Below, piece by piece: positions 1-39,323 of a stretch of 64,000 nt of DNA; position 1 is the first letter of the stretch, and the number at the start of each line of letters is the position of its first letter. The position numbers and the translations under genes are program-made. The notes under the pieces are model-generated. The model had not been told where the DNA came from. It worked only from the letters and a program-made list of their open reading frames with translations, and did not search any database. Source of the stretch: Gemmatimonadota bacterium. Its GTDB lineage: Bacteria > Gemmatimonadota > Gemmatimonadetes > Gemmatimonadales > Gemmatimonadaceae. Location of the stretch: NCBI GenBank assembly GCA_021413975.1, contig JAIOPJ010000013.1, forward strand, positions 1-64,000, written 5' to 3'.

Positions 1-3000
1 CGTCGGCTCGGTCTGCCCCGCCAGCGGCAGCGGCAACATCACCGCGACGGTCGATCTGCTGAATGGTGGCACCGCGACCTTCACGGTCACGGCGACCGCG
101 AGCGGCACGGGCACGATCACGAACACGGCGACGATCACGGCACCAGTCGGCGTGAACGACCCGGCCGGCAACAACAGCGCGACCGACAACAACACCGTCA
201 TCACGCCGACGGCCGACCTGAGCATCACGAAGACCGACGGGGTCGCGACCGTCAACCAGAACGGCACCGTCACGTATACGATCGTCGCGAGCAACGCCGG
301 CCCCAGCGCGGTCAGTGGCGCGACGATCACCGACGTCATCCCCGCGAACCTGAGCGCGGCGACCTGGACCTGCTCCGCGAGTGCGGGCTCGGTCTGCCCG
401 GCGAGCGGCAGCGGGAGCATCAACGCGAGCGTCGATCTCCTGAGCGGCGGCGCCGCGACCTTCACGGTCACCGCGACCGCCAGCGGCGCGGGCACGATCA
501 CGAACACGGCGACGATCACCGCGCCGGTGGGCGTCAACGACCCGGCCGGCAACAACAGTGCGACCGACAACACGGCCATCACGCCGACCGCCGACCTGAG
601 CATCACCAAGACCGACGGCATCGTGAGCGTCTTCCAGGGTGGCACGGTCACCTACACGATCGTGGCCGGCAACGCGGGCCCGAGCGCCGTGACCGGCGCG
701 ACGGTCAGCGACGTCATCCCGGCGACCCTCGGTGCGGCCACCTGGACCTGCGCAGCCAGCGTCGGCTCGGTCTGCCCGGCGAGCGGCAGCGGCGACATCA
801 ACGCCACGGTCGACCTGCTGAGCGGCGGCAGCGCCACCTTCACCCTGACGGCGACCGCGAGCGGCACCGGAGCGATCACCAACACCGCGACGATCACGGC
901 GCCGGTCGGCACGAACGATCCGGCGGGCAACAACAGTGCGACCGACAACAATACGGTCATCATCGCCGCTGCCGACCTGAGCATCACCAAGACCGACGGT
1001 CTCACCGCCGTGAATCAGGGCGGCACGGTCACCTACACGATCGTGGCCAGCAATGCCGGCCCGAGCGCCGTGACCGGGGCAACCGTGAGCGATCTGATCC
1101 CGGCCAACCTGAGCGCCGCGACCTGGACCTGCTCCGCGAGCGCGGGCTCGGCCTGCCCGGCGAGCGGCAGCGGGAACCTGAACGCGACCGTCGACCTGCT
1201 GAGCGGCGGGACCGTGACCTTCACCGTCACGGCGACGGCGAGCGGGGCGGGGACCATCACCAACACCGCCACGATCACGGCACCGGTCGGCGTGGTCGAT
1301 CCGGCGGGCAACAACAGCGCCACCGACAACAACACGGTCATCACGCCGACGGCCGACCTGAGCATCACCAAGACGGACGGTCTCACGGCGGTCAATCAGG
1401 GCGGCACGGTCACGTACACGATCGTCGCGTCGAACGCCGGTCCGAGCGCCGTGACCGGCGCGACGGTCAGCGACGTGATCCCGGCGAACCTGAGCGCGGC
1501 GACCTGGACCTGCTCGGCGAGTGCCGGCTCCGCCTGCCCTGCGAGCGGCAGCGGCAACCTCGCCGCGATTGTGGACCTGTTGAGCGGCGGGTCGGCGACC
1601 TTCACGGTCACGGCGACGGCGAGCGGCTCCGGCACCATCACCAACACCGCGACCATCGCCGCACCGGTCGGCACGAACGACCCGGCCGGCAACAACAGCG
1701 CGACCGACAACAACACCGTCATCGCACCGACCGCCGACCTGAGCATCACCAAGACGGACGGCCTCACGGCCGTGAACCAGGGCAGTGCGGTGACGTACAC
1801 GATCGTGGCGAGCAACGCGGGCCCGAGCGCCGTGACCGGCGCGACCGTGGCCGACGTCCTCCCGGCGAACGTCTCCGGCGCGACCTGGACCTGCTCCGCC
1901 ACCGCGGGCTCGGCGTGCCCGGCGAGCGGCGTCGGGAACCTCGCCGCGAGCGTCGACCTGCTCAGCGGCGGGTCGGCCACGTTCACCGTCACGGTGACCG
2001 CGAGCGGCGCGGGGACCATCACCAACACGGCGACGATCACGGCGCCGGTGGGCGTGAATGACCCGGCCGGCAACAACAGCGCGACCGACAACAACACCGT
2101 CATCACGCCCGTCGCGGACCTGAGCATCACCAAGGTCCTCGGCTCCGGCCCGCCCGTCCCGGGGCTCCCGGTCACCTACAGCATCACCGTGGCCAACGCC
2201 GGTCCGAGCGACGTGGCCGGCGCCACCGTCACCGACGTCTTCCCGGCGGCGATCTCCGGCGTCACCTGGAGCTGCAGCGCGAGCGCGGGCTCGTCGTGCG
2301 CGGCGAGCGGCAGCGGCGACCTCAACACCACCGTCAGCCTGTTGAGCGGCGGATCGGTCACCTACACGGCGACCGGCACGCTCGCGGCCAGCGGCACCGG
2401 CGCACTCGTGAACACCGCGACCGTCACGGCTCCCGTGGGTCTGTTCGACCCGCCGGGCAACAACAGCGCGACGGCGAACAACGTCCGTACGCCGCAGGCC
2501 GACGTCGCCGTCTCCCAGACCGGTCCCGCGTCGGTGGTGCCGGGCAATCCGATCACCTACTCGGTGACGGTGACGAACAACGGTCCGTCCGACGCCGTCA
2601 CCACCAACGTGACCGTGCCGCTGCCGCCGGGGGTCACCTTCATCAACAGCGCGGGCGATTGCCCGGCCGGCTTCCCGTGCGCGCTCGGGACACTCCCGCC
2701 GGGCGCGACCCGCACCTTCACCGTGACGTACCTCGTGCCGGGTGCGTACGCGGGTCCGGACCCGATCACGCACTCGGTCACGGCGACCACCGCGACCACC
2801 GATCCGGCCCTCGGCAACAACACCGCGGTCGCCTCGACCTCCGTGGGTTCGCCGATCGCGGACCTCGGCATCACCAAGTCGGACGGCTCGGCCGTCTCGA
2901 TCCCCGGCGCGCCGATCACCTACACGATCGTGGCGAGCAACGCCGGCCCGAGCGCGGCGATCGGCGCGACGGTCACCGACAACTTCCCGGCCGACATCAC

Positions 3001-6000
3001 CGGCGTCACCTGGACCTGCTCGGCGGCCGGTGGCGCGGCCTGCCCGGCCTCGGGCAGCGGGAATCTCTCGGTGCTCGTCGACCTCCCCGCCGGCGGCACG
3101 GTGACCTTCACCGCCAGCGGCACGATCTCGCCGAGCGCGACGGGATCGCTCGTGAACACGGCGTCGATCACCCCGCCGCCCGGCGTGAGCGACCCGTCAT
3201 CGGCGAACAACACCGACGTCAACACGCTCGTGCCGAGCGCGGACCTGAGCCTCACGAAGACGGGACCGTTGAACGCGGTGCCCGGATCGTCGCTGGTCTA
3301 CACGTTGACGGTGAGCAACGCCGGACCCTCCAACGCCGCCGGCGTGACGGTCACGGATCCGACGCCGGCCGGACTCACGTTCGTCAGCACGGCGGGTGAC
3401 TGCGTCACGGCATTCCCGTGCGTGCTCGGCATCGTGCCGCCGGGCGCGACGCGGACGATCACGGTGACGTACGCCGTGCCCCCGACCTACACGACGCCCG
3501 ACCCGGTGGTGAACACGGCGACGGTCTCGAGCACGACGGCCGATCCGGTCGCCGGGAACAACAGCGCGTCCACGAGCACGCCGGTCGCCGCGACCGCCGA
3601 TCTGGGCATCACCAAGACCGACGGCCTCGTCACCGTGAATCAGGGCGGCACGGTCACGTACACGATCGTGGCGAGCAACGCCGGACCGAGCGCGGTGACC
3701 GGGGCGACGGTCACTGACGTGATCCCTGCCGCGTTGAGCGGTGCGACCTGGACCTGCTCCGCGAGCGCGGGCTCGGTCTGCCCCGCGAGCGGCAGTGGCA
3801 GCATCGCGGCGAGCGTGAGCCTCCTGAGCGGCGGCAGCGCGACCTTCACCGTCACGGCGACGGCGAGCGGGACGGGGACGATCACCAACACTGCGACGAT
3901 CGCGGCCCCGGTGGGCGTGACCGATCTCGGCGTCGGCAACAACAGCGCGACCGACAACACGGCCATCACGCCGACGGCCGACCTGAGCATCACCAAGGTC
4001 CTGAGTTCCGGCGCGCCGGTGGCAGGGGCGACCGCGAGCTACACGATCACGGTGTCGAACGCAGGCCCGAGCGCGGTGGCCGGCGCGGCGGTCGCCGACG
4101 CGTTCCCGGCGACGCTGACCGGCGTCACCTGGACCTGCGCCGCGAGCGCAGGTTCGGCGTGCGCGGCGAGCGGCGCGGGCGACATCAACACCACGGTCGA
4201 TCTCCTCAGCGGCGGCACCGCGACCTTCACCGCGAGCGGCGCGATCGCCGCGAACGCGACGGGCTCGCTCGCCAACACCGCGACGGTCACGCCGCCGGTG
4301 GGTGTGAACGATCCCGCGGGCAACAACAGCTCGACCGCCACGGCCGCACTCACCGCGCAGGCCGACGTGACCGTCACCCAGACCGGCCCCGCCAACGCGG
4401 TGCCGGGCACGACGATCACCTACACGGTCGTCGTGACCAACAACGGTCCGTCGGACGCGCAGAACGTCGTTGTGAGCGCGGCGGTGCCGCCGGGCCTCAC
4501 GCTGGTCGGCACGGCGGGCGCCTGTCCCGCCGGCTTCCCCTGCGCGCTCGGCACCCTCACGCCGGGTGCGACGCGCACCTTCACGGTCACCTACACGGTG
4601 CCGAGCGGGTACACGACGCCCGATCCGATCGTGCACACGGTCACGACGTCGAGCACGACGCCGGACCCGGTGCCCGTCAACAACAACGCGGCGCTCCCGA
4701 TCGGCCTGGGCGCCTCGCAGGCCGACCTGAGCATCACGAAGACCGACGGCGTGGCGAGCGCCACGCAGGGCGGCACGATCACCTACACGATCGTGGCGGC
4801 CAACGCCGGCCCCAGTGACGTCACGAGCGCGACCGTGAGCGACCTGCTCCCGGCGCAGCTCACCGGAGCGACCTGGACCTGCACGACGTCCGCCGGCTCG
4901 GTCTGCCCGGCGAGCGGCGCGGGCAACCTGAATGCGACCGTCAGCCTCCTGAACGGCGGCAGCGCGACCTTCCTCGTCACCGCGACCGTCAGCGGCACCG
5001 GCACGATCGCGAACACGGCGACGATCACGGCGCCCGTGGGCGTGGTGGATCCGGCCGGCAACAACAGCGCCACCGACAACCACACGGTCATCACGCCGAC
5101 GGCCGACCTGAGCATCACCAAGACCGACGGTGTGGTGGCGGCGAGCCAGGGCAGCACGCTCACCTACACGATCGTCGTCTCCAACGCAGGCCCGAGCGCG
5201 GTCACCGGCGCCACGGTGACCGATCTCCTGCCGGCGCAGCTCACGGGTGCGACCTGGACCTGCGGCGCGACCGCGGGTTCGACCTGTCCGGCCGCGGGCG
5301 CGGGCGACATCAACGCGACCGTGGATCTCCTCAGCGGCGGCCAGGCGACCTTCACGGTCACTGGCACGGTGACGGGCACCGGCGTGATCACCAACACGGC
5401 GACGGTCGCCGCACCGGTGGGGGTGAACGACCCGGCCGGCAACAACTCGGCGACCGACAACAACACCGTCATCACGCCCACCGCGGACCTGCGCATCACC
5501 AAGACCGACGGCGTGGCGTCGGTGCTGCAGGGCGCCACCGTCACGTACACCATCGTCGCGAGCAACTCGGGCCCGAGCGCGGTCACCGGAGCCACGGTGG
5601 CCGACCCGCTGCCGGCGCAGTTGACCGGCGCGACCTGGACCTGCTCGGCGACCGCGGGCTCGGCCTGCCCCGCGAGTGGCGCCGGCAACATCAATGCGTC
5701 GGTCGACCTGCTCAACGGCGGCACGGCGACCTTCATCCTCACCGCGACGGCGAGCGGATCGGGCACTGTCATCAACACGGCGACGATCGCGTCGCCGGTC
5801 GGCTCCAACGACCCGACGCCGGGTGACAACAGCGCGACCGACAACACGACGATCGTGCCGACGGCGGACCTGAGCATCACCAAGAGCGACGGCGTGGCCA
5901 CCGTGAATCAGGGCGGTACGCTGACGTACACGATCCTGGTGAGCAACGCCGGCCCGAGCGCCGTCGTCGGTGCCACGGTGAGCGATCCGCTCCCTGCCGC

Positions 6001-7350
6001 CCTCTCGGGCGCGACGTGGACCTGCACGGCGTCCGCGGGCTCGGCCTGCCCGGCGAGCGGTTCGGGCAGCATCAACGCGAGCGTCAGCCTCCTGAGCGGC
6101 GGCACCGCGACCTTCACTCTCACGGCGACCGTGAGCGGCAGCGGGAGCATCACCAACACCGCCACCGTCACCGCGCCCGTGGGTGTGAACGACCCGGCGG
6201 GCAACAATGCCGCCACCGACGTGACCACGGCGGCGAGCACCGCGGACCTGAGCATCACCAAGACCGACGGCCTCACCACCATCGCCACGGGCGCCACGGT
6301 CACGTACACGATCGTCGCCAACAACGCCGGGCCGAGCGCGGTGACCGGCGCGACGGTCTCCGACGTCATGCCCGCGCAGCTGAGCACCCCGACCTGGACC
6401 TGCACGGCCTCCGCGGGTTCGACCTGCCCGGCCGCCGGCGCGGGGAACATCAATGCGGCCGTGGATCTCGCGGTCGGCGGCACGGCGACCTTCACGGTGA
6501 CGTCGCCGGTGACGGGTACGGGCGTGCTGAGCAACACGGCGACCATCACGGCACCGGTCGGCATAAACGATCCGGCGGGCAACAACAGCGCCACCGACGT
6601 CACGACCATCCAGCGTCCCGACCTCGCGCTGACCAAGAGCCACACCGGCACCTTCATCGTCGGCAGCAACGGCACCTACTCGCTGACGGTGCAGAACGTG
6701 GGTGCTGCGGCGACCGCGGGCGTCACGACGGTGCTCGACACGCTCCCGGCCGGCCTCGGATTCGTCTCCGCGACGGGCACGAACTGGGCCTGCGGCGTGG
6801 TCGGCCAGATCGTGACCTGCACGACGAACACGCCGATCGCCGCGGGCGCGAGCAGCGTCATCACGCTGGTGACCGCCGTGACGGCGCCGGCCCTGCCCAG
6901 CGTCACCAACCGGGCAGTGGTGAGCACGGCCAATGACGCCAGTCCCGCGAACGACGCGGCCTCCGATCCGACGACCGTCAGTCCGGCGGTCGACCTCTCG
7001 ATCACCAAGACCCCGGTCGGCGTCTTCCGCGTGGGCGGGACCGGCAGCTACAACATGGTGGTCGCGAACGTCGGTCCCACCGCCACGCTCGGCACGGTCA
7101 CCGTCGTCGACACGCTGCCCACGGGCCTGACCTTCGTCTCCGCCGTCGGCGCCGGCTGGTCGTGCGGTGCGGTGGGCGCGGTGATGACCTGCACCTACTC
7201 GGCGGTGCTGGCGCCGGGGGCCACCGCCGCCTTCACGCTCACGGTGAACGTGGCCGCGGCCGCGCTCCCGACCGTCGTCAACCGCGTCACCGTCTCGACC
7301 CTCGGCGACGAGATCTCGATCGGCAACAACGTCTCCACCACCTCGCCGGT
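1..7350 (+). repeat. Array of ~20 DUF11-like coding repeats, ~360-380 bp each
   Basis: Repeated motif (P/T)ADLSITKTDG...GGTVTYTIVASNAGPSAVTGATV...TWTCSASAGSVCPASGSG...TNTATITAPVGVNDPAGNNSATDN. The periodic ~363-nt antisense ORFs in the track reflect the same period. Confidence 0.9.
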
Positions 7351-10300
7351 GCTCGTCTCCGACGTGCAGCTCACGGTGGAGAAGACCGCGTCGCGCGATG
7401 TGGTCGAGATCGCCGACGTGCTCGACTACCGCGTCGAGGTGCGGGCCTCCGGTACGGTGACGGCGACCGACGTCGTGCTCAACGACGCGCTCCCCTCCGG
7501 CTTCTCGTACCTCAACGGAACCGCGCGCCTCGACGGCGTCGTGATCGCCGATCCCACCGGCGCGCCCGGTTCACGCCTGGCCTTCGCGCTCGGCACGGTG
7601 CCGAGCGGCGGCAGCGTGGTGGTGACGTACCGCGTACGCGTGGGCGCCGGCGCCCGCCTGGGTGATGGCATCAACCGCGCCTTCGCGTCGAGCGCCATCA
7701 TGGGCGCCGCGTCCGCGACGGCGGCCGCGCGCGTGCGGGTCGAGGGCGGGGTCTTCACCGACCGCGCGACGATCCTCGGCAAGGTCTATGTCGATTGCGA
7801 GTGCGACTCGCTGCAGGTGGTGCAGGGGGCGCACGAGGTCGGCGTCCCGGGCGTGCGCGTGATCCTCGAGGACGGCACCTCGGTGATCACCGACGTCGAG
7901 GGCAAGTTCAGCTTCTACGGGATCAGCCCGCGCCGCCATGTGCTGCGCGTGGACGAGCGCACCCTCCCGCCGGGCTCGGTGCTCCTCGAGACCGCGCGCC
8001 GGAACGCAGGGGACGCGCGCAGCCGCTTCGTCGACCTGACGACGGGTGAGCTGCATGTCGCCGACTTCGCGCTGCGGCGCACCGATGGCCTGCTGCGCGA
8101 AGTCCAGGCGCGTCGCGCGCAGGGCGAGATCAGCGGGCTCGTGGCCGACAGCGGCGTGGTGATGGTGAGTGGCGTGCCGGTCGAGGGCGGAGTGCCGGTC
8201 GCGAGCGGGATGCCAGTGACCGGTGGAACGGTCGTCGCGGGTGGTGCTGCCGTCGCGGGCGGGGTCGCCGTCGCCGGCGGATCGGGCGCCGGCGTCCTGA
8301 CCGTGGCGCCGCGCACCGACGGCGTCTATCGCCCGCTGCTCGCGACCGGCGTCGCGGCGCTCGGTGAAGGCCTGACCACGTTCCTGCTGCGGTCCGACTC
8401 GTCCGCCTCGGCGCCGTCGGCCTCGGGGCATCGCATCGACATGCGGGTGCCGCAGAGCGTGCTCCCCGCCGATGGCGTCACCGCGGTGCCGGTCATCGTG
8501 CGCGTCGTCGACGCGCGCGGCACGGTCGTCTCGGCGCCCGGCCGCGTGACCCTCGAGACGAGCCTCGGCCGCTGGCTGGTCGAGGACCTCGACCTCAATG
8601 AGCCCGGTGTGCAGACGATGCTAGGCGACAGCGGCTCGGTCTTCCGTCTGGCCGCGCCCACGCAGCCCGGCAACGGCCAGGTCCGTGTGACGACCGAACA
8701 GCGGCTCAGCACCACGCAGAACATCTACTTCGGTGCCGCCTCGCAGGCGCTCCTCGCCACCGGCCTCGTGCAGGCGCGCGTGAGCCTTCGCTCGCTCACC
8801 ACCGGCGCCCTCACGCCGGCGCGCGCCGAGGACGGCTTCGAGGAGGTCCTGCAGGATCTCTCGGTCTCGAGCGGCAGCGGCGACCTCCGGGCCGGAGCCC
8901 GTGGTGCGCTCTACCTGCGCGGCAAGGTGAAGGGCGACTACCTGCTCACGCTCGCGCTCGACTCCGAGCGCGAGGAGCAGGAACGCTTGCGCCGCGACAT
9001 CCGGCCGGACGAGTTCTACCCGGTGTACGGTGACGCGTCGGTGCGCGAGTTCGACGCGCAGTCGGCGGGCCGCTTCTACGTGCGCGTCGACAAGGAGCGC
9101 TCGTACTTCCTCTATGGCGACTTCGCGACGCCGTCGGCGGTGGACAGCCGCGTGCTGACCGCCTACGACCGCACCTTCACCGGTGCCCGGCAGCACATCG
9201 AGGGGAATCGCGGCGTGCTCGACGTCTTCGCCAGCCAGGGTCGCCTGACGCAGATCGTGGACGAGATCCGCGGCATGGGCATCTCCGGCCCGTACGCGCT
9301 GCGCCGCCGCGACGCGCGGATGAACACCGAGCGCGTCGAGATCCTCACCCGTGACCGGAACCAGCCGAGTCTGATCGTGCGCGTGGAGCCGCAGCAGCGC
9401 TTCGCCGACTACACGCTCGAGCCCTTCACGGGTCGCATCCTCTTCCGGCGTCCGGTGCCGAGCCTCGACTCCGACCTCAACCCGGTGTCGATCCGCGTCC
9501 TGTACGAGGTGGAGCAGGGTGGTGACGCCTTCTGGCAGGCCGGCCTCTCGGGTCAGGCGCGCGTGACGAGCAGGCTCGAACTGGGCGGCACGCTCGTGCG
9601 CGACGCCAATCCGACGGACGCGCGCTCGCTCGTCGGCCTGAATGCCACGTTGCAGCTCGGTGAGGCCACCTTCCTGCTCGCCGAAGCGGCGCAGACCGAC
9701 GGCGACAGCCTCGTCACCGGTCGCGCGACGCGGTTCGAGCTGCGGCATCGCTCCACGCGCCTCGACGCGCGGCTCTTCGTCGGCCGGTCGGACTCGGGCT
9801 TCGCGAACCTCTCCTCGACCTTCGCCGGCGGGCGCGGCGAGATCGGCGCGCGCGGTACGTACATGCTCGATGCCCGCACCCGCATCCTCACCGAGGCGCT
9901 CCGCACCGAGGATCGCGTCACGGGCGGCCGCCGCGAGGGCGCGCAGCTCGGGGTGGAGCGGTCCTTCAACGAGCGCCTGCGGGTCGAGGCCGGCTTCCGC
10001 CACGCCTCCGAGACCACCGCGCCGGCGTCGCTGCAGACCGTCGGGGCGACGCCCAACGAGACGAACGCCCTGCGCACCCGCGTGACGGCCGACCTGCTCG
10101 ACCGCCGCCGCGCCTCGGTGTGGGGCGAGTTCGAGCAGGACGTCCAGAGCTCCGACCAGCGTCGCGCCGCCCTTGGCGCGGACTTCCTGGTGGCCAAGCG
10201 CACGCGCATCTACGGCCGCCACGAGTTGCTCTCGTCCTTCGCCGGTCCCTACGCCATGAACGGCGCACAGAGCGCCGCGCAGACGGTCCTCGGCATCGAC

Positions 10301-11212
10301 ACCGACTACCTCACGGGCAACCAGGCCTTCAGCGAGTACCGCGCGCGCGACGCCTTCGCCGGCCGCGACGCCGAGGCCGCGATCGGTCTGCGCAACCGCT
10401 GGACGCTGCAGCGCGGCCTGGTGCTCAACACCTCGTACGAGCGGGTGGCGCGCCTGCGCGGCACCGGCGTCGAGGCGACCTCCGTCACCGGCGGCATCGA
10501 GTACACGCGCAATCCGCTCTGGCGCGGCACCGCACGCGTCGAGTTCCGCGACGCCACCGGCGGCGACAGCTGGCTCGGCTCGCTCGGCTACGCCCGCAAG
10601 GTCACGCGCGACGTGACCTTCCTGGGCCGTTCGCTCTTCAGCACCATCGCCAACACGCAGACGCAGAGCCGCACGCAGCTCGGCTTCGCCTTCCGCCAGA
10701 CCGACACCGACACCTGGAACGCGCTCGCGCGCTACGAGTACCGTTACGATGACAGCCGGCCGGCCGGCTCGGTCGAGACGGAGAGCCGTGCGCACATCCT
10801 GAGCGCCCACCTGAACGTGCGCGTGCGGCCCGATCTCACGCTCTCGGGCCAGTACGCGACCAAGCTCGGCCACGACGACATCGGCGGGATCGGCTCCGAT
10901 CTCAGCGCGCACCTCTTCACCACCCGCGCGCTCGTGGACCTCAGCCGCAACTGGGACGCGGCCCTGATCGGCCGTGCGCTCTTCACCGGCGGCTTCAGCG
11001 ACCGCGAGTTCGGCCTGGGCGCCGAGGTCGGGCGCCGGATCGCGCGGAACATGCGTCTGGCGATCGGCGGCAACGTGTTCGGGGTGCGCGACCGCGGGCT
11101 CACGGACACCAACAGCACGCAGCGCGGCCTCTACATCGACCTTGGCTGGAAGTTCGCCGAGGATATCTTCGGTGCACCCCCCGCAGCGCCCGCTCCCGCC
11201 CCGCGTCCATGA
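1..11212 (+). CDS. Giant surface protein, 5'-truncated by the window: ~20 DUF11-type Ig-like repeats, an SdrD B-like/prealbumin-like domain, an invasin-like region, and a C-terminal predicted outer-membrane beta-barrel
   Basis: The frame is open from nt 2 (VGSVCPASGSGN...) through the track ORF 152..11212. ADLSITKTDG...NDPAGNNSATD units recur about every 120 aa. The C-terminal ~900 aa is rich in alternating aromatic/charged strands (GDYLLTLALDSE, RFYVRVDKERSYFLYGDF). Confidence 0.9.
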   Translation, partial: VGSVCPASGSGNITATVDLLNGGTATFTVTATASGTGTITNTATITAPVGVNDPAGNNSATDNNTVITPTADLSITKTDGVATVNQNGTVTYTIVASNAGPSAVSGATITDVIPANLSAATWTCSASAGSVCPASGSGSINASVDLLSGGAATFTVTATASGAGTITNTATITAPVGVNDPAGNNSATDNTAITPTADLSITKTDGIVSVFQGGTVTYTIVAGNAGPSAVTGATVSDVIPATLGAATWTCAASVGSVCPASGSGDINATVDLLSGGSATFTLTATASGTGAITNTATITAPVGTNDPAGNNSATDNNTVIIAAADLSITKTDGLTAVNQGGTVTYTIVASNAGPSAVTGATVSDLIPANLSAATWTCSASAGSACPASGSGNLNATVDLLSGGTVTFTVTATASGAGTITNTATITAPVGVVDPAGNNSATDNNTVITPTADLSITKTDGLTAVNQGGTVTYTIVASNAGPSAVTGATVSDVIPANLSAATWTCSASAGSACPASGSGNLAAIVDLLSGGSATFTVTATASGSGTITNTATIAAPVGTNDPAGNNSATDNNTVIAPTADLSITKTDGLTAVNQGSAVTYTIVASNAGPSAVTGATVADVLPANVSGATWTCSATAGSACPASGVGNLAASVDLLSGGSATFTVTVTASGAGTITNTATITAPVGVNDPAGNNSATDNNTVITPVADLSITKVLGSGPPVPGLPVTYSITVANAGPSDVAGATVTDVFPAAISGVTWSCSASAGSSCAASGSGDLNTTVSLLSGGSVTYTATGTLAASGTGALVNTATVTAPVGLFDPPGNNSATANNVRTPQADVAVSQTGPASVVPGNPITYSVTVTNNGPSDAVTTNVTVPLPPGVTFINSAGDCPAGFPCALGTLPPGATRTFTVTYLVPGAYAGPDPITHSVTATTATTDPALGNNTAVASTSVGSPIADLGITKSDGSAVSIPGAPITYTIVASNAGPSAAIGATVTDNFPADITGVTWTCSAAGGAACPASGSGNLSVLVDLPAGGTVTFTASGTISPSATGSLVNTASITPPPGVSDPSSANNTDVNTLVPSADLSLTKTGPLNAVPGSSLVYTLTVSNAGPSNAAGVTVTDPTPAGLTFVSTAGDCVTAFPCVLGIVPPGATRTITVTYAVPPTYTTPDPVVNTATVSSTTADPVAGNNSASTSTPVAATADLGITKTDGLVTVNQGGTVTYTIVASNAGPSAVTGATVTDVIPAALSGATWTCSASAGSVCPASGSGSIAASVSLLSGGSATFTVTATASGTGTITNTATIAAPVGVTDLGVGNNSATDNTAITPTADLSITKVLSSGAPVAGATASYTITVSNAGPSAVAGAAVADAFPATLTGVTWTCAASAGSACAASGAGDINTTVDLLSGGTATFTASGAIAANATGSLANTATVTPPVGVNDPAGNNSSTATAALTAQADVTVTQTGPANAVPGTTITYTVVVTNNGPSDAQNVVVSAAVPPGLTLVGTAGACPAGFPCALGTLTPGATRTFTVTYTVPSGYTTPDPIVHTVTTSSTTPDPVPVNNNAALPIGLGASQADLSITKTDGVASATQGGTITYTIVAANAGPSDVTSATVSDLLPAQLTGATWTCTTSAGSVCPASGAGNLNATVSLLNGGSATFLVTATVSGTGTIANTATITAPVGVVDPAGNNSATDNHTVITPTADLSITKTDGVVAASQGSTLTYTIVVSNAGPSAVTGATVTDLLPAQLTGATWTCGATAGSTCPAAGAGDINATVDLLSGGQATFTVTGTVTGTGVITNTATVAAPVGVNDPAGNNSATDNNTVITPTADLRITKTDGVASVLQGATVTYTIVASNSGPSAVTGATVADPLPAQLTGATWTCSATAGSACPASGAGNINASVDLLNGGTATFILTATASGSGTVINTATIASPVGSNDPTPGDNSATDNTTIVPTADLSITKSDGVATVNQGGTLTYTILVSNAGPSAVVGATVSDPLPAALSGATWTCTASAGSACPASGSGSINASVSLLSGGTATFTLTATVSGSGSITNTATVTAPVGVNDPAGNNAATDVTTAASTADLSITKTDGLTTIATGATVTYTIVANNAGPSAVTGATVSDVMPAQLSTPTWTCTASAGSTCPAAGAGNINAAVDLAVGGTATFTVTSPVTGTGVLSNTATITAPVGINDPAGNNSATDVTTIQRPDLALTKSHTGTFIVGSNGTYSLTVQNVGAAATAGVTTVLDTLPAGLGFVSATGTNWACGVVGQIVTCTTNTPIAAGASSVITLVTAVTAPALPSVTNRAVVSTANDASPANDAASDPTTVSPAVDLSITKTPVGVFRVGGTGSYNMVVANVGPTATLGTVTVVDTLPTGLTFVSAVGAGWSCGAVGAVMTCTYSAVLAPGATAAFTLTVNVAAAALPTVVNRVTVSTLGDEISIGNNVSTTSPVLVSDVQLTVEKTASRDVVEIADVLDYRVEVRASGTVTATDVVLNDALPSGFSYLNGTARLDGVVIADPTGAPGSRLAFALGTVPSGGSVVVTYRVRVGAGARLGDGINRAFASSAIMGAASATAAARVRVEGGVFTDRATILGKVYVDCECDSLQVVQGAHEVGVPGVRVILEDGTSVITDVEGKFSFYGISPRRHVLRVDERTLPPGSVLLETARRNAGDARSRFVDLTTGELHVADFALRRTDGLLREVQARRAQGEISGLVADSGVVMVSGVPVEGGVPVASGMPVTGGTVVAGGAAVAGGVAVAGGSGAGVLTVAPRTDGVYRPLLATGVAALGEGLTTFLLRSDSSASAPSASGHRIDMRVPQSVLPADGVTAVPVIVRVVDARGTVVSAPGRVTLETSLGRWLVEDLDLNEPGVQTMLGDSGSVFRLAAPTQPGNGQVRVTTEQRLSTTQNIYFGAASQALLATGLVQARVSLRSLTTGALTPARAEDGFEEVLQDLSVSSGSGDLRAGARGALYLRGKVKGDYLLTLALDSEREEQERLRRDIRPDEFYPVYGDASVREFDAQSAGRFYVRVDKERSYFLYGDFATPSAVDSRVLTAYDRTFTGARQHIEGNRGVLDVFASQGRLTQIVDEIRGMGISGPYALRRRDARMNTERVEILTRDRNQPSLIVRVEPQQRFADYTLEPFTGRILFRRPVPSLDSDLNPVSIRVLYEVEQGGDAFWQAGLSGQARVTSRLELGGTLVRDANPTDARSLVGLNATLQLGEATFLLAEAAQTDGDSLVTGRATRFELRHRSTRLDARLFVGRSDSGFANLSSTFAGGRGEIGARGTYMLDARTRILTEALRTEDRVTGGRREGAQLGVERSFNERLRVEAGFRHASETTAPASLQTVGATPNETNALRTRVTADLLDRRRASVWGEFEQDVQSSDQRRAALGADFLVAKRTRIYGRHELLSSFAGPYAMNGAQSAAQTVLGIDTDYLTGNQAFSEYRARDAFAGRDAEAAIGLRNRWTLQRGLVLNTSYERVARLRGTGVEATSVTGGIEYTRNPLWRGTARVEFRDATGGDSWLGSLGYARKVTRDVTFLGRSLFSTIANTQTQSRTQLGFAFRQTDTDTWNALARYEYRYDDSRPAGSVETESRAHILSAHLNVRVRPDLTLSGQYATKLGHDDIGGIGSDLSAHLFTTRALVDLSRNWDAALIGRALFTGGFSDREFGLGAEVGRRIARNMRLAIGGNVFGVRDRGLTDTNSTQRGLYIDLGWKFAEDIFGAPPAAPAPAPRP

Positions 11213-22876: not shown

Positions 22877-23029
22877 AACTGCTTGCACCACCGAGGCACC
22901 GGGGACACCGGGAACAGCGAGTGGGAGGCGGACGTCGGGGGCTCTCTCTGTGCCCTTTGACATACCAAGACCCACCACCCGAGACGCCCGTCCCTCGGTG
23001 CCCTCGGTGCCTCGGTGGTGAAAGCAGTT
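22877..23029. repeat. Non-coding element bounded by ~34-bp imperfect inverted repeats of CACCGAGG type
   Basis: Left arm 22877-22910 aactgcttgcaccaccgaggcaccggggacaccg. Reverse complement of 22996-23029 is aactgctttcaccaccgaggcaccgagggcaccg (31/34 identical). Confidence 0.8.
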
Positions 23030-23043
23030 CACGTGACCCGGAC

Positions 23044-23853
23044 TCAGAGATGCCGCAGGAACCGCTCCGGCGCCCGCAGGAAGTCCCGCGTCACCCGCAC
23101 ATGCTCCACCTCGTCATAGGCGATCGCCCGCGGCGGCCGCTCGTCGAACGACCAGATGGTCGCCCCCGGCAACGCCAGCAGGATCGGCGAATGCGTGGCG
23201 ATCACGAACTGCCCGGCATCGTTCACCATGTCCTTCAGCATCGCGAGCAGCGCCAGTTGCGAAGTGGGAGAGAGCGCCGCCTCGGGTTCGTCGAGCAGGT
23301 AGAGCCCATCGGGCACGAACCGGCTGCGAAAGAGGCTCAGGAAGCTCTCCCCATGCGACTGCGCGTCGAAGTCCTCGCCGTAACGCGCCTTGATGTCCCT
23401 CAGCGACCCCATGAGCGGCCCGAGCTTCAGCGCCTTCGACATCGCGCTCCGCCCTTCGTACTCGGCATCCACCCCTTCGATCTCGCGCTCGAGCGCCGCG
23501 CGTTGCATGGCCAGCGAGCGCGTGAAGCCGAAGAAGTCCTCGGCGCGGAGGAAGAATCCCCGATGCGCGCGCCCTTCGCGTCCCCATGTGAGCTTCATCG
23601 CGGCGGCCAGTGCGCGGGCGGGGCCGAGGGTGTCGTCCTCCTCGACGCTCGCGCTGCCGACGGTCGGCAGGTGGACCTTGGCCGCGAGCCCTTCGAGCAG
23701 CGTCGACTTCCCCGACCCGTTCTCGCCGACGAAGAACGTCACCGGTGTCTCGAAGTCGAGCGCGGTCGTCTCGCGCACCGCCGGCACGCTGAACGGATAT
23801 CGCGCCACCTCGTCCTCCGGCGCCGCGAGCGTCAGTCGGCGGAGCCGGTTCAC
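23044..23853 (-). CDS. AAA family ATPase (ABC/SMC-like, COG3910-type)
   Basis: Walker A VGENGSGKST, GLYLLDEPEAALSP (Walker B/signature), ATHSPILLALPGA. GTG start overlaps the CstA stop (tcac 23850-23853). Confidence 0.85.
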   Translation of the reverse strand: MNRLRRLTLAAPEDEVARYPFSVPAVRETTALDFETPVTFFVGENGSGKSTLLEGLAAKVHLPTVGSASVEEDDTLGPARALAAAMKLTWGREGRAHRGFFLRAEDFFGFTRSLAMQRAALEREIEGVDAEYEGRSAMSKALKLGPLMGSLRDIKARYGEDFDAQSHGESFLSLFRSRFVPDGLYLLDEPEAALSPTSQLALLAMLKDMVNDAGQFVIATHSPILLALPGATIWSFDERPPRAIAYDEVEHVRVTRDFLRAPERFLRHL

Positions 23854-25910
23854 GCCGCGGCGCGCGCCGTGTAGGGCTCCTCGCTCGACACCATCGGCTT
23901 GCGCCCCGCCAGCACCGCCCACCATTCGCGCATGGAGTCGACGAGGATGACGATCACCGAGATCATGAAGAAGGCCGCGACCGCCGCATCGAGGCGGTCG
24001 TTGAAGACCAGTCGTGCGGCGCCGGCGGCATCGCTCACCCCCGGGGGCAACTCTCCGGCGGCGACCTTCTCCGCCACCCACCGCGCATGCGCGAGGAATC
24101 CGAGCTTCGGGTTGGGATCGAACAGCTTGAGCGTCCCGGCGGTCATCGTGACGATGACCAGCCAGATCATCGGCAGGATCGTCATCCAGGCGTACTTCGC
24201 CTTGCCCATCTTGATGATCACGGTGGTGCCCACGCAGAGCGCGATCGTCGCGAGCAGCTGGTTGGCGATGCCGAACAGCGGCCAGAGCGAGTTGATGCCG
24301 CCGAGCGGGTCGGTCACGCCCTGGTAGAGGAAGAAGCCCCAGCAGGCCACGAACATCGCGCTCGAGGTCACGACGGCAGGGTACCAGGAGACCCGGCCGA
24401 ACGGCGCCCAGATGTGCTTGCCGAGGTCCTGCAGCATGAAGCGGCCCACGCGGGTGCCGGCGTCGAGCGTCGTGAGGATGAACAGCGCCTCGAACATCAG
24501 CGCGAAATGGTACCAGAGCGCCATCGAGTTGGTGCCGCCGAGCAGGTCGGAGAAGATCTTCGCCATGCCGACCGCGAGCGAGGGCGCGCCTCCCGTGCGC
24601 GAGAGCAGGGAGCTCTCCTGCACCTGCGCGGCGAGCATGGTGAGCTCGGTCGGGCTCAGCGTGAATCCCCAGGTCGCGATCATCGCCGCCGCGCTCTCGG
24701 CCGTCGTGCCGATCAGTCCGGCCGGGGCGTTGATCGCGAAGTACACGCCGGGCGTGAGGACGCAGGCGGCGATCAGGGCCATGATCGCGACGAGTGATTC
24801 CGTGAGCATCGCCCCATAGCCGATGAAGCGCGCGTAGGCCTCGTTCTCGAGGATCTTGGGCGTGGTGCCCGACGAGATCAGCGCATGGAACCCGCTGATC
24901 GCCCCGCAGGCGATGGTGATGAAGACGAACGGGAAGACCTTCCCCGCGAACACCGGACCGGTGCCGTCGATGAACTGCGTCACGGCGGGCATCTGCAGCG
25001 GCGGCAGCACGAGGATGATGCCGACGGCGAGCGCGACGACCACGCCGATCTTCACGAACGCCGAGAGATAGTCGCGGGGCGCGAGCAGCAACCAGACCGG
25101 GATCACCGAGGCGGCGAAGCCGTAGACCATGAGGGCGTAGGCGAGCGTGACCCCGTCGAGCGTGAACATCGGCGCCAACACCGGATGCGTCCCCGCCCAG
25201 CGGCCCACGTAGAGCGAGAGCATGAGGAGCACGATGCCGATCGCGCTCACCTCGAGCACGCGGCCCGGCCGCAGGTACTTGAGGTACACGCCCATGAACA
25301 TCGCGATCGGCACGGTGAGGCCGATGGTGACCGTGCCCCAGGGGCTCGACTTGAGCGCGTTCACCACGATCAACGCGAGTACCGAGATGAGGATGATCAT
25401 GATCCCGAGCACCGCCACGAGAGCGGTGTAGCCGGCGATCGGGCCGATCTCCTCCTTGGCCATCTGCCCGAGCGACTTGCCGTTGCGCCGCACCGACGAG
25501 ATGAGGATCACGCAGTCCTGCACCGCGCCACCCAGCACCACGCCGACGATGATCCAGAGCGCGCCCGGGAGGAACCCGAACTGCGCCGCGAGCGTCGGCC
25601 CCACGAGCGGACCGGGACCGGCGATGGCCGCGAAGTGGTGCCCGAACACGATCCACTTGTTGGTCGGGTGGAAGTCGCGCCCGTCGGCGAGCCGCGCGGC
25701 CGGCGTCGCGCGCGTGGCGTCGAGCGCGAAGATCTTCGCCGCGATGATCTTGCTGTAGAAGCGGTACCCGATCGCGTAGGTGCAGACCGCCGCCACCAGC
25801 AGCCAGGCCGCATTGATCGTCTCGCCCCGCTGGAGCGCGATGAACGCGATCGCACCGGCGCCGGTGAGGGAGATGGCGGCCCAGAGGAGGGCCGAGAGCC
25901 AACGGGGCAT
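23850..25910 (-). CDS. cstA: Carbon starvation protein CstA family transporter
   Basis: MPRWLSALLWAAISLTG...GYRFYSKIIAAKIFALDATRATPAARLADGRDFHPTNKWIVFGHHFAAIAGPGPLVGP is diagnostic of CstA. Confidence 0.95.
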   Translation of the reverse strand: MPRWLSALLWAAISLTGAGAIAFIALQRGETINAAWLLVAAVCTYAIGYRFYSKIIAAKIFALDATRATPAARLADGRDFHPTNKWIVFGHHFAAIAGPGPLVGPTLAAQFGFLPGALWIIVGVVLGGAVQDCVILISSVRRNGKSLGQMAKEEIGPIAGYTALVAVLGIMIILISVLALIVVNALKSSPWGTVTIGLTVPIAMFMGVYLKYLRPGRVLEVSAIGIVLLMLSLYVGRWAGTHPVLAPMFTLDGVTLAYALMVYGFAASVIPVWLLLAPRDYLSAFVKIGVVVALAVGIILVLPPLQMPAVTQFIDGTGPVFAGKVFPFVFITIACGAISGFHALISSGTTPKILENEAYARFIGYGAMLTESLVAIMALIAACVLTPGVYFAINAPAGLIGTTAESAAAMIATWGFTLSPTELTMLAAQVQESSLLSRTGGAPSLAVGMAKIFSDLLGGTNSMALWYHFALMFEALFILTTLDAGTRVGRFMLQDLGKHIWAPFGRVSWYPAVVTSSAMFVACWGFFLYQGVTDPLGGINSLWPLFGIANQLLATIALCVGTTVIIKMGKAKYAWMTILPMIWLVIVTMTAGTLKLFDPNPKLGFLAHARWVAEKVAAGELPPGVSDAAGAARLVFNDRLDAAVAAFFMISVIVILVDSMREWWAVLAGRKPMVSSEEPYTARAAA

Positions 25911-26019
25911 CGGGGGTCCGAGTTCGGGGAGAGCGACGGGACGATTCTACGCGTTACGCGGCGGGGGCGGGAGGGGTTGGAGGTGGAGCGGCATCGGGCG
26001 CCCGACTAGCTTTATCACT

Positions 26020-26090
26020 TCAGGTGGTAGGGGGTAGTGGGTAGGTGACCTGCACTCTCCCGGACTCCTCCCACCTTCCTCCTCCCACCC
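26020..26090. repeat. Intergenic heptanucleotide-periodic tracts in inverted orientation
   Basis: AGGTGGT AGGGGGT AGTGGGT AGGTGAC (26022-26049), then CCTCCCA CCTTCCT CCTCCCA CCC (26067-26090). Confidence 0.7.
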
Positions 26091-26094
26091 GTCC

Positions 26095-26709
26095 TTGAGC
26101 CCTCAGCGCGTTCTCAGACTCGCAACCCTCACGCTCTGGCTGGGCGCGGTTGCCCAGCTCGGCGCCCAGGGGAAGCCGGCCCCAGTGGCAGGCCCACCGC
26201 TCTCGCCGTTCGTGGCGATGCGCGTCGCGATCGTCCCCGCCCAGCTCTGGCACGCCGACTCGGTGGGCTGGAGCCGGAGTGTCGCCTGGGCTACCACCCG
26301 CGTGGAACTCGACTCCGCCATCGCGGCCGTGCTCCAGGAGCGAGGGCTCGCCAGGAAGTGGGCCTATGCCGCTGACGTCGTCCGCAGTGCCAAGCGCAAC
26401 CCGACCTACGCCTCCGATCCCTACGCGCTCGGCGTGACGCGTCTGCGCGGGGGCGAGCTCAAGAGCGGCACCGAGGTCCCCCAGCTCCTCGCCGACAACC
26501 TCCGCACCGTCACCGCCCTCGGCGACACGCGCTTCGCCCTCATCCCCGTGGAGCTGCGCGCTCAGGGGGAGGGAGTGGTGCTCCGCCTCGTGCTGGTCGA
26601 TACTCGCACACGCAACCTCGTCTGGGCCGGTGACCTCCTCGCGCCGGGTGGCGCGCAGATGGTCGCGGGCCTCGCCACGCGTGTCGCCGACCTCATCATC
26701 GAACCCTGA
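26095..26709 (+). CDS. Hypothetical exported protein (TTG start)
   Basis: Signal-like N-terminus LRLATLTLWLGAVAQLGAQG; coherent codon usage. Confidence 0.6.
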   Translation: MSPQRVLRLATLTLWLGAVAQLGAQGKPAPVAGPPLSPFVAMRVAIVPAQLWHADSVGWSRSVAWATTRVELDSAIAAVLQERGLARKWAYAADVVRSAKRNPTYASDPYALGVTRLRGGELKSGTEVPQLLADNLRTVTALGDTRFALIPVELRAQGEGVVLRLVLVDTRTRNLVWAGDLLAPGGAQMVAGLATRVADLIIEP

Positions 26710-31303: not shown

Positions 31304-31353
31304 CGCCAAGGGGGGGCGAGCGGACCACCGCCAAGGGGGGGCGAGCGGACCAC
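31304..31353. repeat. Perfect tandem duplication of a 25-bp unit
   Basis: CGCCAAGGGGGGGCGAGCGGACCAC at 31304-31328 and 31329-31353. Confidence 0.95.
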
Positions 31354-38026: not shown

Positions 38027-39256
38027 ATGGCCTCCTCCGAAACCGAAAACTTCCTCGCCTCACCGCAGCTCCGCCCGCGCGACGGCGACCTGTTCAACAT
38101 CGACGCCGCCCTCACCGAAGAGGAGCGTGCGGTCCGCGATTCCGTCCGCGCCTTCGTCGACGAGAAGGTCCTGCCGATCATCGGCCAGGCCTACGTCGAC
38201 GGCCGCTTCCCGCGCGAGCTCATCGCCGAGATGGGCGAGAACGGCTACTTCGGCGCCAACCTCCCCGAGGAGTACGGCTGCGCCGGGCTCAACAACGTGA
38301 TGTACGGCCTCATCATGCAGGAGCTCGAGCGCGGCGATTCGGGCATCCGCTCCTTCGCGTCGGTGCAGGGCGCCCTGGTGATGTATCCCATCTACGCCTT
38401 CGGCTCCGAGGCGCAGAAGAAGCACTGGCTCCCGCAGATGGCGAAGGGCACCAAGATCGGCTGCTTCGGCCTCACCGAACCCGACTACGGTTCCAACCCC
38501 GGCGGGATGATCACGCGGGCGCGCAAGCAGGCCGACGGCACCTGGATCCTCAACGGCGCGAAGATGTGGATCACCAACGGCTCCACCGCGCACGTCGCGG
38601 TGGTCTGGGCCAAGACCGAGGACGGCGACGACGAGGGCAAGTCGATCAAGGGATTCCTCGTCCCGACCGACAGCAAGGGCTTCAAGGCGAAGGACGCCAA
38701 GGGCAAGCTCTCGCTCCGCGCGTCGGACACGAGCGAGCTGGTCTTCGACAACGTCCATCTCCCGGCCGACGCGATCCTGCCGAACTCGGGCGGCCTCAAG
38801 AGCCCGCTCATGTGCCTCACACAGGCGCGCTACGGCATCTCGTGGGGTGTGCTCGGCGCCGCCATCGCCTGCTACGAGGAAGCACTCTCGTACGGCAAGA
38901 ACCGCGTGATGTTCGGCAAGCCGATCGCCGGCTTCCAGATCCAGCAGGTGCGCCTGGCCGACATGATCACCGAGATCACCAAGGGCCAGCTGCTCTCGCT
39001 CCACCTGGGCCGCATGAAGGACGCCGGCACCTTCACGCCGCAGCAGGTCTCCATGGCCAAGCGCAACAACGTGGACATCGCCACGAACATCGCCCGCGAG
39101 GCGCGGCGGCTGCTCGGCGCGGTGGGCATCCTGGCCGAGTACGGCAGCATGCGGCACATGGCCAATCTCGAGAGCGTCTACACGTACGAGGGGACGCACG
39201 ACATGCACTCGCTGATCATCGGGCAGGCGATCACCGGGATGGGGGCGTTCAAGTAG
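38027..39256 (+). CDS. Acyl-CoA dehydrogenase family protein (glutaryl-CoA dehydrogenase-like)
   Basis: GCFGLTEPDYGSNPGGMITRARK; YEGTHDMHSLIIGQAITG. Confidence 0.92.
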   Translation: MASSETENFLASPQLRPRDGDLFNIDAALTEEERAVRDSVRAFVDEKVLPIIGQAYVDGRFPRELIAEMGENGYFGANLPEEYGCAGLNNVMYGLIMQELERGDSGIRSFASVQGALVMYPIYAFGSEAQKKHWLPQMAKGTKIGCFGLTEPDYGSNPGGMITRARKQADGTWILNGAKMWITNGSTAHVAVVWAKTEDGDDEGKSIKGFLVPTDSKGFKAKDAKGKLSLRASDTSELVFDNVHLPADAILPNSGGLKSPLMCLTQARYGISWGVLGAAIACYEEALSYGKNRVMFGKPIAGFQIQQVRLADMITEITKGQLLSLHLGRMKDAGTFTPQQVSMAKRNNVDIATNIAREARRLLGAVGILAEYGSMRHMANLESVYTYEGTHDMHSLIIGQAITGMGAFK

Positions 39257-39292
39257 GAAGTAGGATGGAGGATGAAGGATGGAAGAAGAGGG
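39251..39292. repeat. Heptanucleotide-periodic tract starting at the stop codon of the acyl-CoA dehydrogenase gene
   Basis: AAGTAGG AAGTAGG ATGGAGG ATGAAGG ATGGAAG AAGAGGG. Confidence 0.75.
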
Positions 39293-39323
39293 CGTCCCGC
39301 GTTCGGGGCGCCCTCCTTCTTTC
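39289..39323 (+). terminator. Rho-independent terminator-like hairpin
   Basis: AGGGCGTCCC - gcgttc - GGGGCGCCCT, then CCTTCTTTC. Confidence 0.7.

Follow-up and report, generated by a model that had tools for sequence, protein, structure and literature searches.

The spacer between cstA and its divergently transcribed neighbour in a Gemmatimonadaceae genome carries two short tracts that proceed in steps of seven nucleotides and face each other as an inverted pair. The question they raise is whether such a pair is a chance G-rich stretch or one member of a repeat family with an origin, and perhaps a function, of its own. We addressed this question in the window, the 64,000-nucleotide stretch of a Gemmatimonadota genome in which the pair occupies 26020–26094, in a larger sample of the same genome, and in its relatives.

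The tract pair between cstA and its neighbour

The purine-rich left arm on the plus strand (26022–26049) consists of four imperfect heptamers, AGGTGGT AGGGGGT AGTGGGT AGGTGAC. After a loop of 17 nt (26050–26066), three more heptamers follow, CCTCCCA CCTTCCT CCTCCCA (26067–26087), as part of a right arm (26067–26094) that is pyrimidine-rich as written, purine-rich on the minus strand, and stops at the TTG start of the next open reading frame (ORF). The letters are exactly those quoted in the first-pass annotation, but calling the 7-nt steps strict overstated the case, as identity at lag 7 is 15/21 in the left arm and 13/21 in the right arm (over 26066–26093). Tandem Repeats Finder reports 26022–26045 with a period of 7, 3.4 copies and a score of 34, which is close to its floor. 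At least 15/21 matches at period 7 were obtained in 27 of 5000 dinucleotide shuffles of the local spacer (~0.5%), and when six periods were allowed, 62 of 2000 shuffles matched the reported tract (~3%). By itself, the reported tract is modestly unusual and has little claim to attention.

It had also been suggested that the two tracts could pair into a degenerate hairpin and that the G-rich strand could form a quadruplex. The predicted RNA hairpin does somewhat better than shuffles when read from the minus strand (z -2.2) but no better when read from the plus strand (z -1.1). As for a quadruplex, the four-G-run motif (G3+, loops of 1–7) is found on neither strand of this locus, and only two-G runs are present. 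Rfam returned no matches at gathering scores for the whole window, and simple promoter and terminator scans found nothing.

On the minus strand, the divergent neighbour is cstA (23850–25910; Pfam CstA, E = 8e-250), which is closest to sequences from Gemmatimonadota metagenome assemblies, the nearest at 92%. On the plus strand, the ORF at 26095–26709 has a TTG start, a signal-peptide-like beginning, no Pfam match, and orthologs at cstA in relatives; an isocitrate/isopropylmalate dehydrogenase gene comes after it. In an alignment of these relatives, a -10-like box that precedes the ORF on the plus strand (ACTAGCTTT, 26005–26013) is conserved. In the relatives, the spacer upstream of the orthologs contains the conserved box as GATTAGCTTT or similar, and in several of them the ORF starts 5–8 nt past it, as read by eye from the alignment; such a box-then-start order is that of a leaderless transcript. 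In the window, 81 nt separate the box from the TTG, the reported element occupies that gap, and the equivalent site of the closest cstA relative has no heptamers. A heptamer hairpin of ~75 nt (26020–26094) may have been placed between the -10-like box and the ORF start, where it would provide a new 5' leader for a gene that appears leaderless in relatives.

Two other features of the window were observed in passing, a very long ORF at 2–11212 with 381-bp tandem repeats, which likely encodes a repetitive surface protein, and a perfect 25-bp tandem duplication at 31304–31353 made of two copies of CGCCAAGGGGGGGCGAGCGGACCAC.

Period-7 tracts in intergenic spacers

Enrichment of 7-nt periodicity in other spacers of the genome had been set beforehand as the test of the proposal. 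Our sample comprised 961 kb of the window's genome chosen without regard to repeats, plus selected stretches, or about one third of the genome. Genes were predicted with our own caller, seeded with amino-acid composition, on which the gene borders depend and with which start codons are uncertain, and purine- or pyrimidine-biased tracts were counted for each period in spacers and in coding DNA. Within the 961 kb, one count found 41 period-7 tracts in spacers and 7 in coding DNA, with 1–6 spacer tracts at each of periods 4–6 and 8–13. In the count that was set against dinucleotide shuffles of the spacers, period 7 had 40 spacer tracts and the other periods had 1–5, and the shuffles gave a mean of 1.0 and a maximum of 3 in 60. 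The enrichment is present, at 40 tracts against 1.0, and the reality of period-7 spacer repeats in this genome and its order, the soil and freshwater Gemmatimonadales, is strongly supported.

The main word of the genome is GGATGAA, with the variants GGATGGA, GGCTGAA and GGATGTA. A typical member of the family, and a far better example than the reported pair, lies in the same window: a GGATGGA/GGATGAA arm at 39247–39292 on the plus strand matches itself at 23/28 positions at lag 7 and begins at the stop codon of the gene at 38027–39256. Directly after this arm, on the same strand, is a GC-rich core hairpin with a CUUCUUUC tail (39281–39323; fold -35.5 kcal/mol, z -2.0). Several relatives have a hairpin in this position, accompanied by different heptamers or by none. 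Several spacers show large folds in which a GC-rich core separates the arms.

For tracts at gene borders in six genomes, the purine-rich strand reads 5' to 3' away from the gene, toward the interior of the spacer, regardless of how the gene is oriented. At stops, the sense strand is purine in 40 cases and pyrimidine in 3; at starts, it is pyrimidine in 20 cases and purine in 1, whereas random placement would give equal shares of both polarities. Spacers with two arms have the purine arm first and the pyrimidine arm second in 16 of 16 cases in four genomes (G000, which is the window's own, together with G015, G005 and G010) and in 3 of 3 cases in G062, making 19:0 overall in the sampled DNA; at G015:C1:231927 and 232037, a pair in the opposite order was noticed by eye in a whole-genome listing. 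Inverted pairs of the kind first noticed at cstA are frequent among the period-7 spacer tracts of the genome and the order. An association with gene 3' ends had likewise been raised, and tracts do often lie there in this genome and order, but the reported locus sits between two gene starts, those of cstA and the ORF at 26095. Part of the tracts have no partner arm, and part lie between divergent genes.

These results bear on whether the reported pair is G-rich by chance and has no tie to the heptamer family. The pair is an outlier in its own genome, given its other words and its position between divergent genes: its mean word sharing with other loci of the genome is 0.006 versus 0.17. The off-word letters, the divergent spacer, the ~3% of shuffles matched over six periods, and a plus-strand hairpin no better than shuffles all favour chance. 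However, the spacers of the 961-kb sample hold 40 such tracts where chance would give about one in total; the reported tract has a partner arm, in the purine-then-pyrimidine order of the family; the pyrimidine arm adjoins a start codon, as the placement rule predicts; and the stretch is missing from the equivalent place in the closest cstA relative. We consider chance a rather unlikely account, and the reported pair is probably a degenerate, off-word member of the heptamer family.

Related arrangements were also observed. Three short gaps between co-directional genes of the window's genome (L008:12617–12654, L010:17765–17805 and L184:3335–3385) consist almost entirely of pyrimidine heptamers that directly precede the start codon, with no evident ribosome-binding site. 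At 22890–23020 of the window, between two minus-strand genes, there is a sibling hairpin with 8–9-nt steps of the CACCGAGG type, with its purine arm on the left and its pyrimidine arm on the right (RNA fold -123 kcal/mol, z -5.0); translated in six frames, it produces spurious ORFs of the HRGTEGTE kind. Hairpins of CACAGAGG with 8- or 9-nt steps occur in G015 (L137:10736–10879, L138:91–346, L141:6310–6503 and 9484–9677) and in G005 (L162:1728–2050). The purine arm is always first in these G015 and G005 hairpins, so the order rule extends outside period 7. The words of the 8-nt-step siblings were not found in the literature searched.

Genome-specific words and candidate explanations

Relatives have the same layout with other words, for example GGTGTGA, GGACGGA, GGCTGGA, GGGAGAA and GACGAGA. 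Words are shared more within than between genomes, to a degree that 0 of 5000 label permutations reached, and in genome listings one or two words dominate and recur at many sites of a genome: GGTGTGA/GGTGGGA in G010, GGCTGAA/GGCTGGA in G013, GGACGAA/GGATGAA in G015, GGGAAGA in G137, GGGAGAA in G062, GGGAAAA in G029, GGTGAGA/GGTAAGA in G023 and GGGGGAA in G160. G023 and G062 additionally have (GACGAGA)n and (GATGACA)n arrays, in which GG hardly occurs. Of 150 genomes from the phylum, those rich in tracts are in f1, f2 and, weakly, f3, which are families of the same order as the window, and other families have almost no tracts. Within the genus, richness is patchy: the window's genome has 110 matches and G011, to which it is closest at the compared genes, has 3, while G012 and G014, both complete genomes, have none.

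A single word at many loci of a genome is what favours reading the tracts as sites for a sequence-specific RNA- or DNA-binding protein whose word changes from species to species. CsrA is the first candidate, since AAGGATG resembles its consensus, and a csrA gene exists in the window's genome (G000:C46:12569–12721; it is patchy in the genus, occurring also in 5 of 16 congeners). However, CsrA is missing from G005, which is rich in tracts and 96% complete, and was found in 6 of the 17 genus genomes; words like GACGAGA have no GGA core; and the polarity at starts presents the wrong strand for a site in mRNA. CsrA was rejected as a general cause on its absence from G005, and we regard the binding-protein reading as improbable.

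The tracts could also be quadruplex-forming repeats, as proposed for the heptamers of Xanthomonas and Nostoc. Two-G runs occur in 72 of 95 tracts from six genomes, and most tracts of the window's genome have four GG in step, a length that our detector roughly favours. Yet the three-G motif is present in 14 of these 95 tracts, with the reported locus having it on neither strand, and the arrays of G062 and G023 keep the layout almost without GG. Quadruplexes were rejected as a general cause on both of these counts, and we hold this explanation to be very improbable.

Orthologous spacers were found both empty and filled. The genes before a putative cutC (named from its start) abut or nearly so in G001, G004, G007, G009, G010 and G014, while the gap holds arms of four different words in the window's genome, G016, G005 and G003, and hairpins with 8-nt steps in G008, G012 and G015. 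At a second place, locus A, the window's genome has a 100-nt heptamer hairpin between convergent genes that abut in several relatives. Downstream of an acyl-CoA dehydrogenase gene, the window's genome, G003, G007 and G010 have heptamers of differing words together with a core hairpin, and the relative nearest at this gene has a hairpin there without heptamers. The number of empty relatives points to gain rather than loss.

Entire hairpins between genes that abut in relatives, and sibling hairpins with 8- and 9-nt steps that keep the same arm order, are features that a mobile palindrome such as a REP/BIME element or a MITE might leave. Against such an element, the cores differ from locus to locus, as judged by eye, and arm words alone are common. 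The RAYT transposase (Y1_Tnp, PF01797) was found in 0 of 17 genus genomes, on which ground REP/RAYT was rejected, and a mobile element appears to us very unlikely.

A simpler possibility is that these are neutral simple-sequence repeats without function, generated as the polymerase slips in 7-nt steps and surviving as arrays only in non-coding DNA. In many bacteria, no long simple repeats are commoner than heptamers, and it has been suggested that the polymerase makes a 7-nt contact (Mrazek 2007, as cited in PMC4679880 and PMC4692102); the 3 matches in the closest relative at the compared genes versus 110 here indicate fast turnover, in agreement with neutrality. However, independent slippage would not put the same word at dozens of loci, the polarity follows spacer borders rather than gene or replication direction, and the arm order is fixed. 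Neutral repeats are thus a possible but doubtful explanation.

The observations to be explained are the period of seven, confinement to spacers, outward polarity, arm order, words particular to each genome, and orthologous spacers that hold no such element in relatives. Tentatively, we favour spacer hairpins that grew by slippage and template switching and persist as two-way transcript-end hairpins, with the reported pair as a degenerate member. Their layout, in short intergenic gaps, comprises a purine arm of imperfect heptamers at the left border, often a pyrimidine arm at the right border, and a GC-rich hairpin or loop between. Arms may arise and lengthen at spacer hairpins through slippage in 7-nt steps and through template switching, and short copying may carry words from one locus of a genome to another. 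With the purine arm first and the pyrimidine arm second, transcripts entering from either side would fold into a hairpin whose 5' arm is purine and whose 3' arm is pyrimidine, which offers one RNA-level reason for a constant order across words, and elements would persist through this property. The resulting polarity would be that of a two-way intrinsic terminator or insulator. Bidirectional intrinsic terminators are similar in that a hairpin follows the stop codon and is flanked by purine-rich sequence on the 5' side and pyrimidine-rich sequence on the 3' side, but heptamer arms are not in any terminator definition.

Several observations count against the two-way terminator model. Perfect core stems of at least 8 were found at 35% of heptamer-bearing 3' ends versus 20% of others (17 versus 215 ends; p = 0.31), which is no significant excess. 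In the window's genome, the arms of one locus match each other no better than arms elsewhere; locus-specific arm matching is present in G005, where loci differ in words. Unpaired tracts, and tracts between divergent genes, where no terminator is needed, also speak against it. In addition, neither slippage alone nor terminator selection would yield a word shared across the genome, which needs either copying between loci or selection for the word.

A bolder alternative is that each genome's own heptamer is actively written, from gene borders outward, through templated or copy-based addition at DNA ends or stalled forks, such that every 3' end would receive the purine-rich strand, like telomere repeats at chromosome ends. 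If true, it would account jointly for dominant words, differences between sister species, outward polarity, the order of pairs, and gain between abutting genes. The core hairpins inside the arms argue against its simplest form, and we think it very doubtful.

Known heptamer systems and significance

The short tandemly repeated heptamers (STRR) of cyanobacteria such as Calothrix are dispersed in the genome. The present tracts, which the first-pass annotation had compared with these, resemble the Calothrix repeats by description only, as short, tandem, dispersed heptamers. The cyanobacterial comparison is nonetheless apt, as the G-rich heptamers of Nostoc, and of Xanthomonas, obey the same placement rule (PMC4692102). 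These GGGNATC and GGGGAYT repeats (Rehm et al. 2015, PMC4692102) lie mostly in spacers, have imperfect units, and commonly number ~4 units. Regardless of gene orientation, their G-rich strand begins close to the gene on the 5' side, and they include overlaps with stop codons, convergent inverted pairs, few cases between divergent genes, and loci that differ between sister species (PMC4692102). The seven-base unit, spacer enrichment, border polarity and convergent inverted pairs are therefore common to Xanthomonas, Nostoc and the Gemmatimonadales. In contrast, Xanthomonas and Nostoc have one word family per genus with a quadruplex-forming GGG run, whereas the Gemmatimonadales have many words, which change between species of one genus and in some cases almost lack GG, and, unlike the other two, have empty and filled orthologous spacers with different words.

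Two further systems are less similar. The TAACTGA repeats of marine Beggiatoaceae (MacGregor 2015, PMC4679880) are likewise heptamers dispersed in the spacers of one genome and patchy across lineages, but they use one word across phyla, are not purine-rich, and form direct repeats just upstream of starts, with inverted repeats almost never seen. Geobacter metallireducens has four-unit heptamer elements, GGACCGG and MTYCTGA (PMC2700814), and shares with the Gemmatimonadales genome-specific heptamer families of four or five units; the GGACCGG elements differ in occurring also within genes, and border polarity is not mentioned in the available excerpt of that paper (PMC2700814). A literature search found no description of such repeats in Gemmatimonas or Gemmatimonadota, in line with the earlier remark that none was known from this lineage.

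The Gemmatimonadales heptamers are a further variety of a known type of G-rich heptamer, itself largely unexplained. Their existence is well shown, and it is their function that we infer. Heptamer repeats have been recorded in scattered bacteria with no consensus on what explains them, and the single detailed study that we found ties them to quadruplexes. Here, a whole order provides a natural experiment in which period, placement and polarity stay constant while the word varies by species. Comparison across the order tells the shared features, namely the period, purine bias, outward polarity and arm order, apart from those that are not shared, namely the exact word and quadruplexes, and the paired empty and filled orthologous spacers allow direct tests of the origin of these repeats and of their effect.
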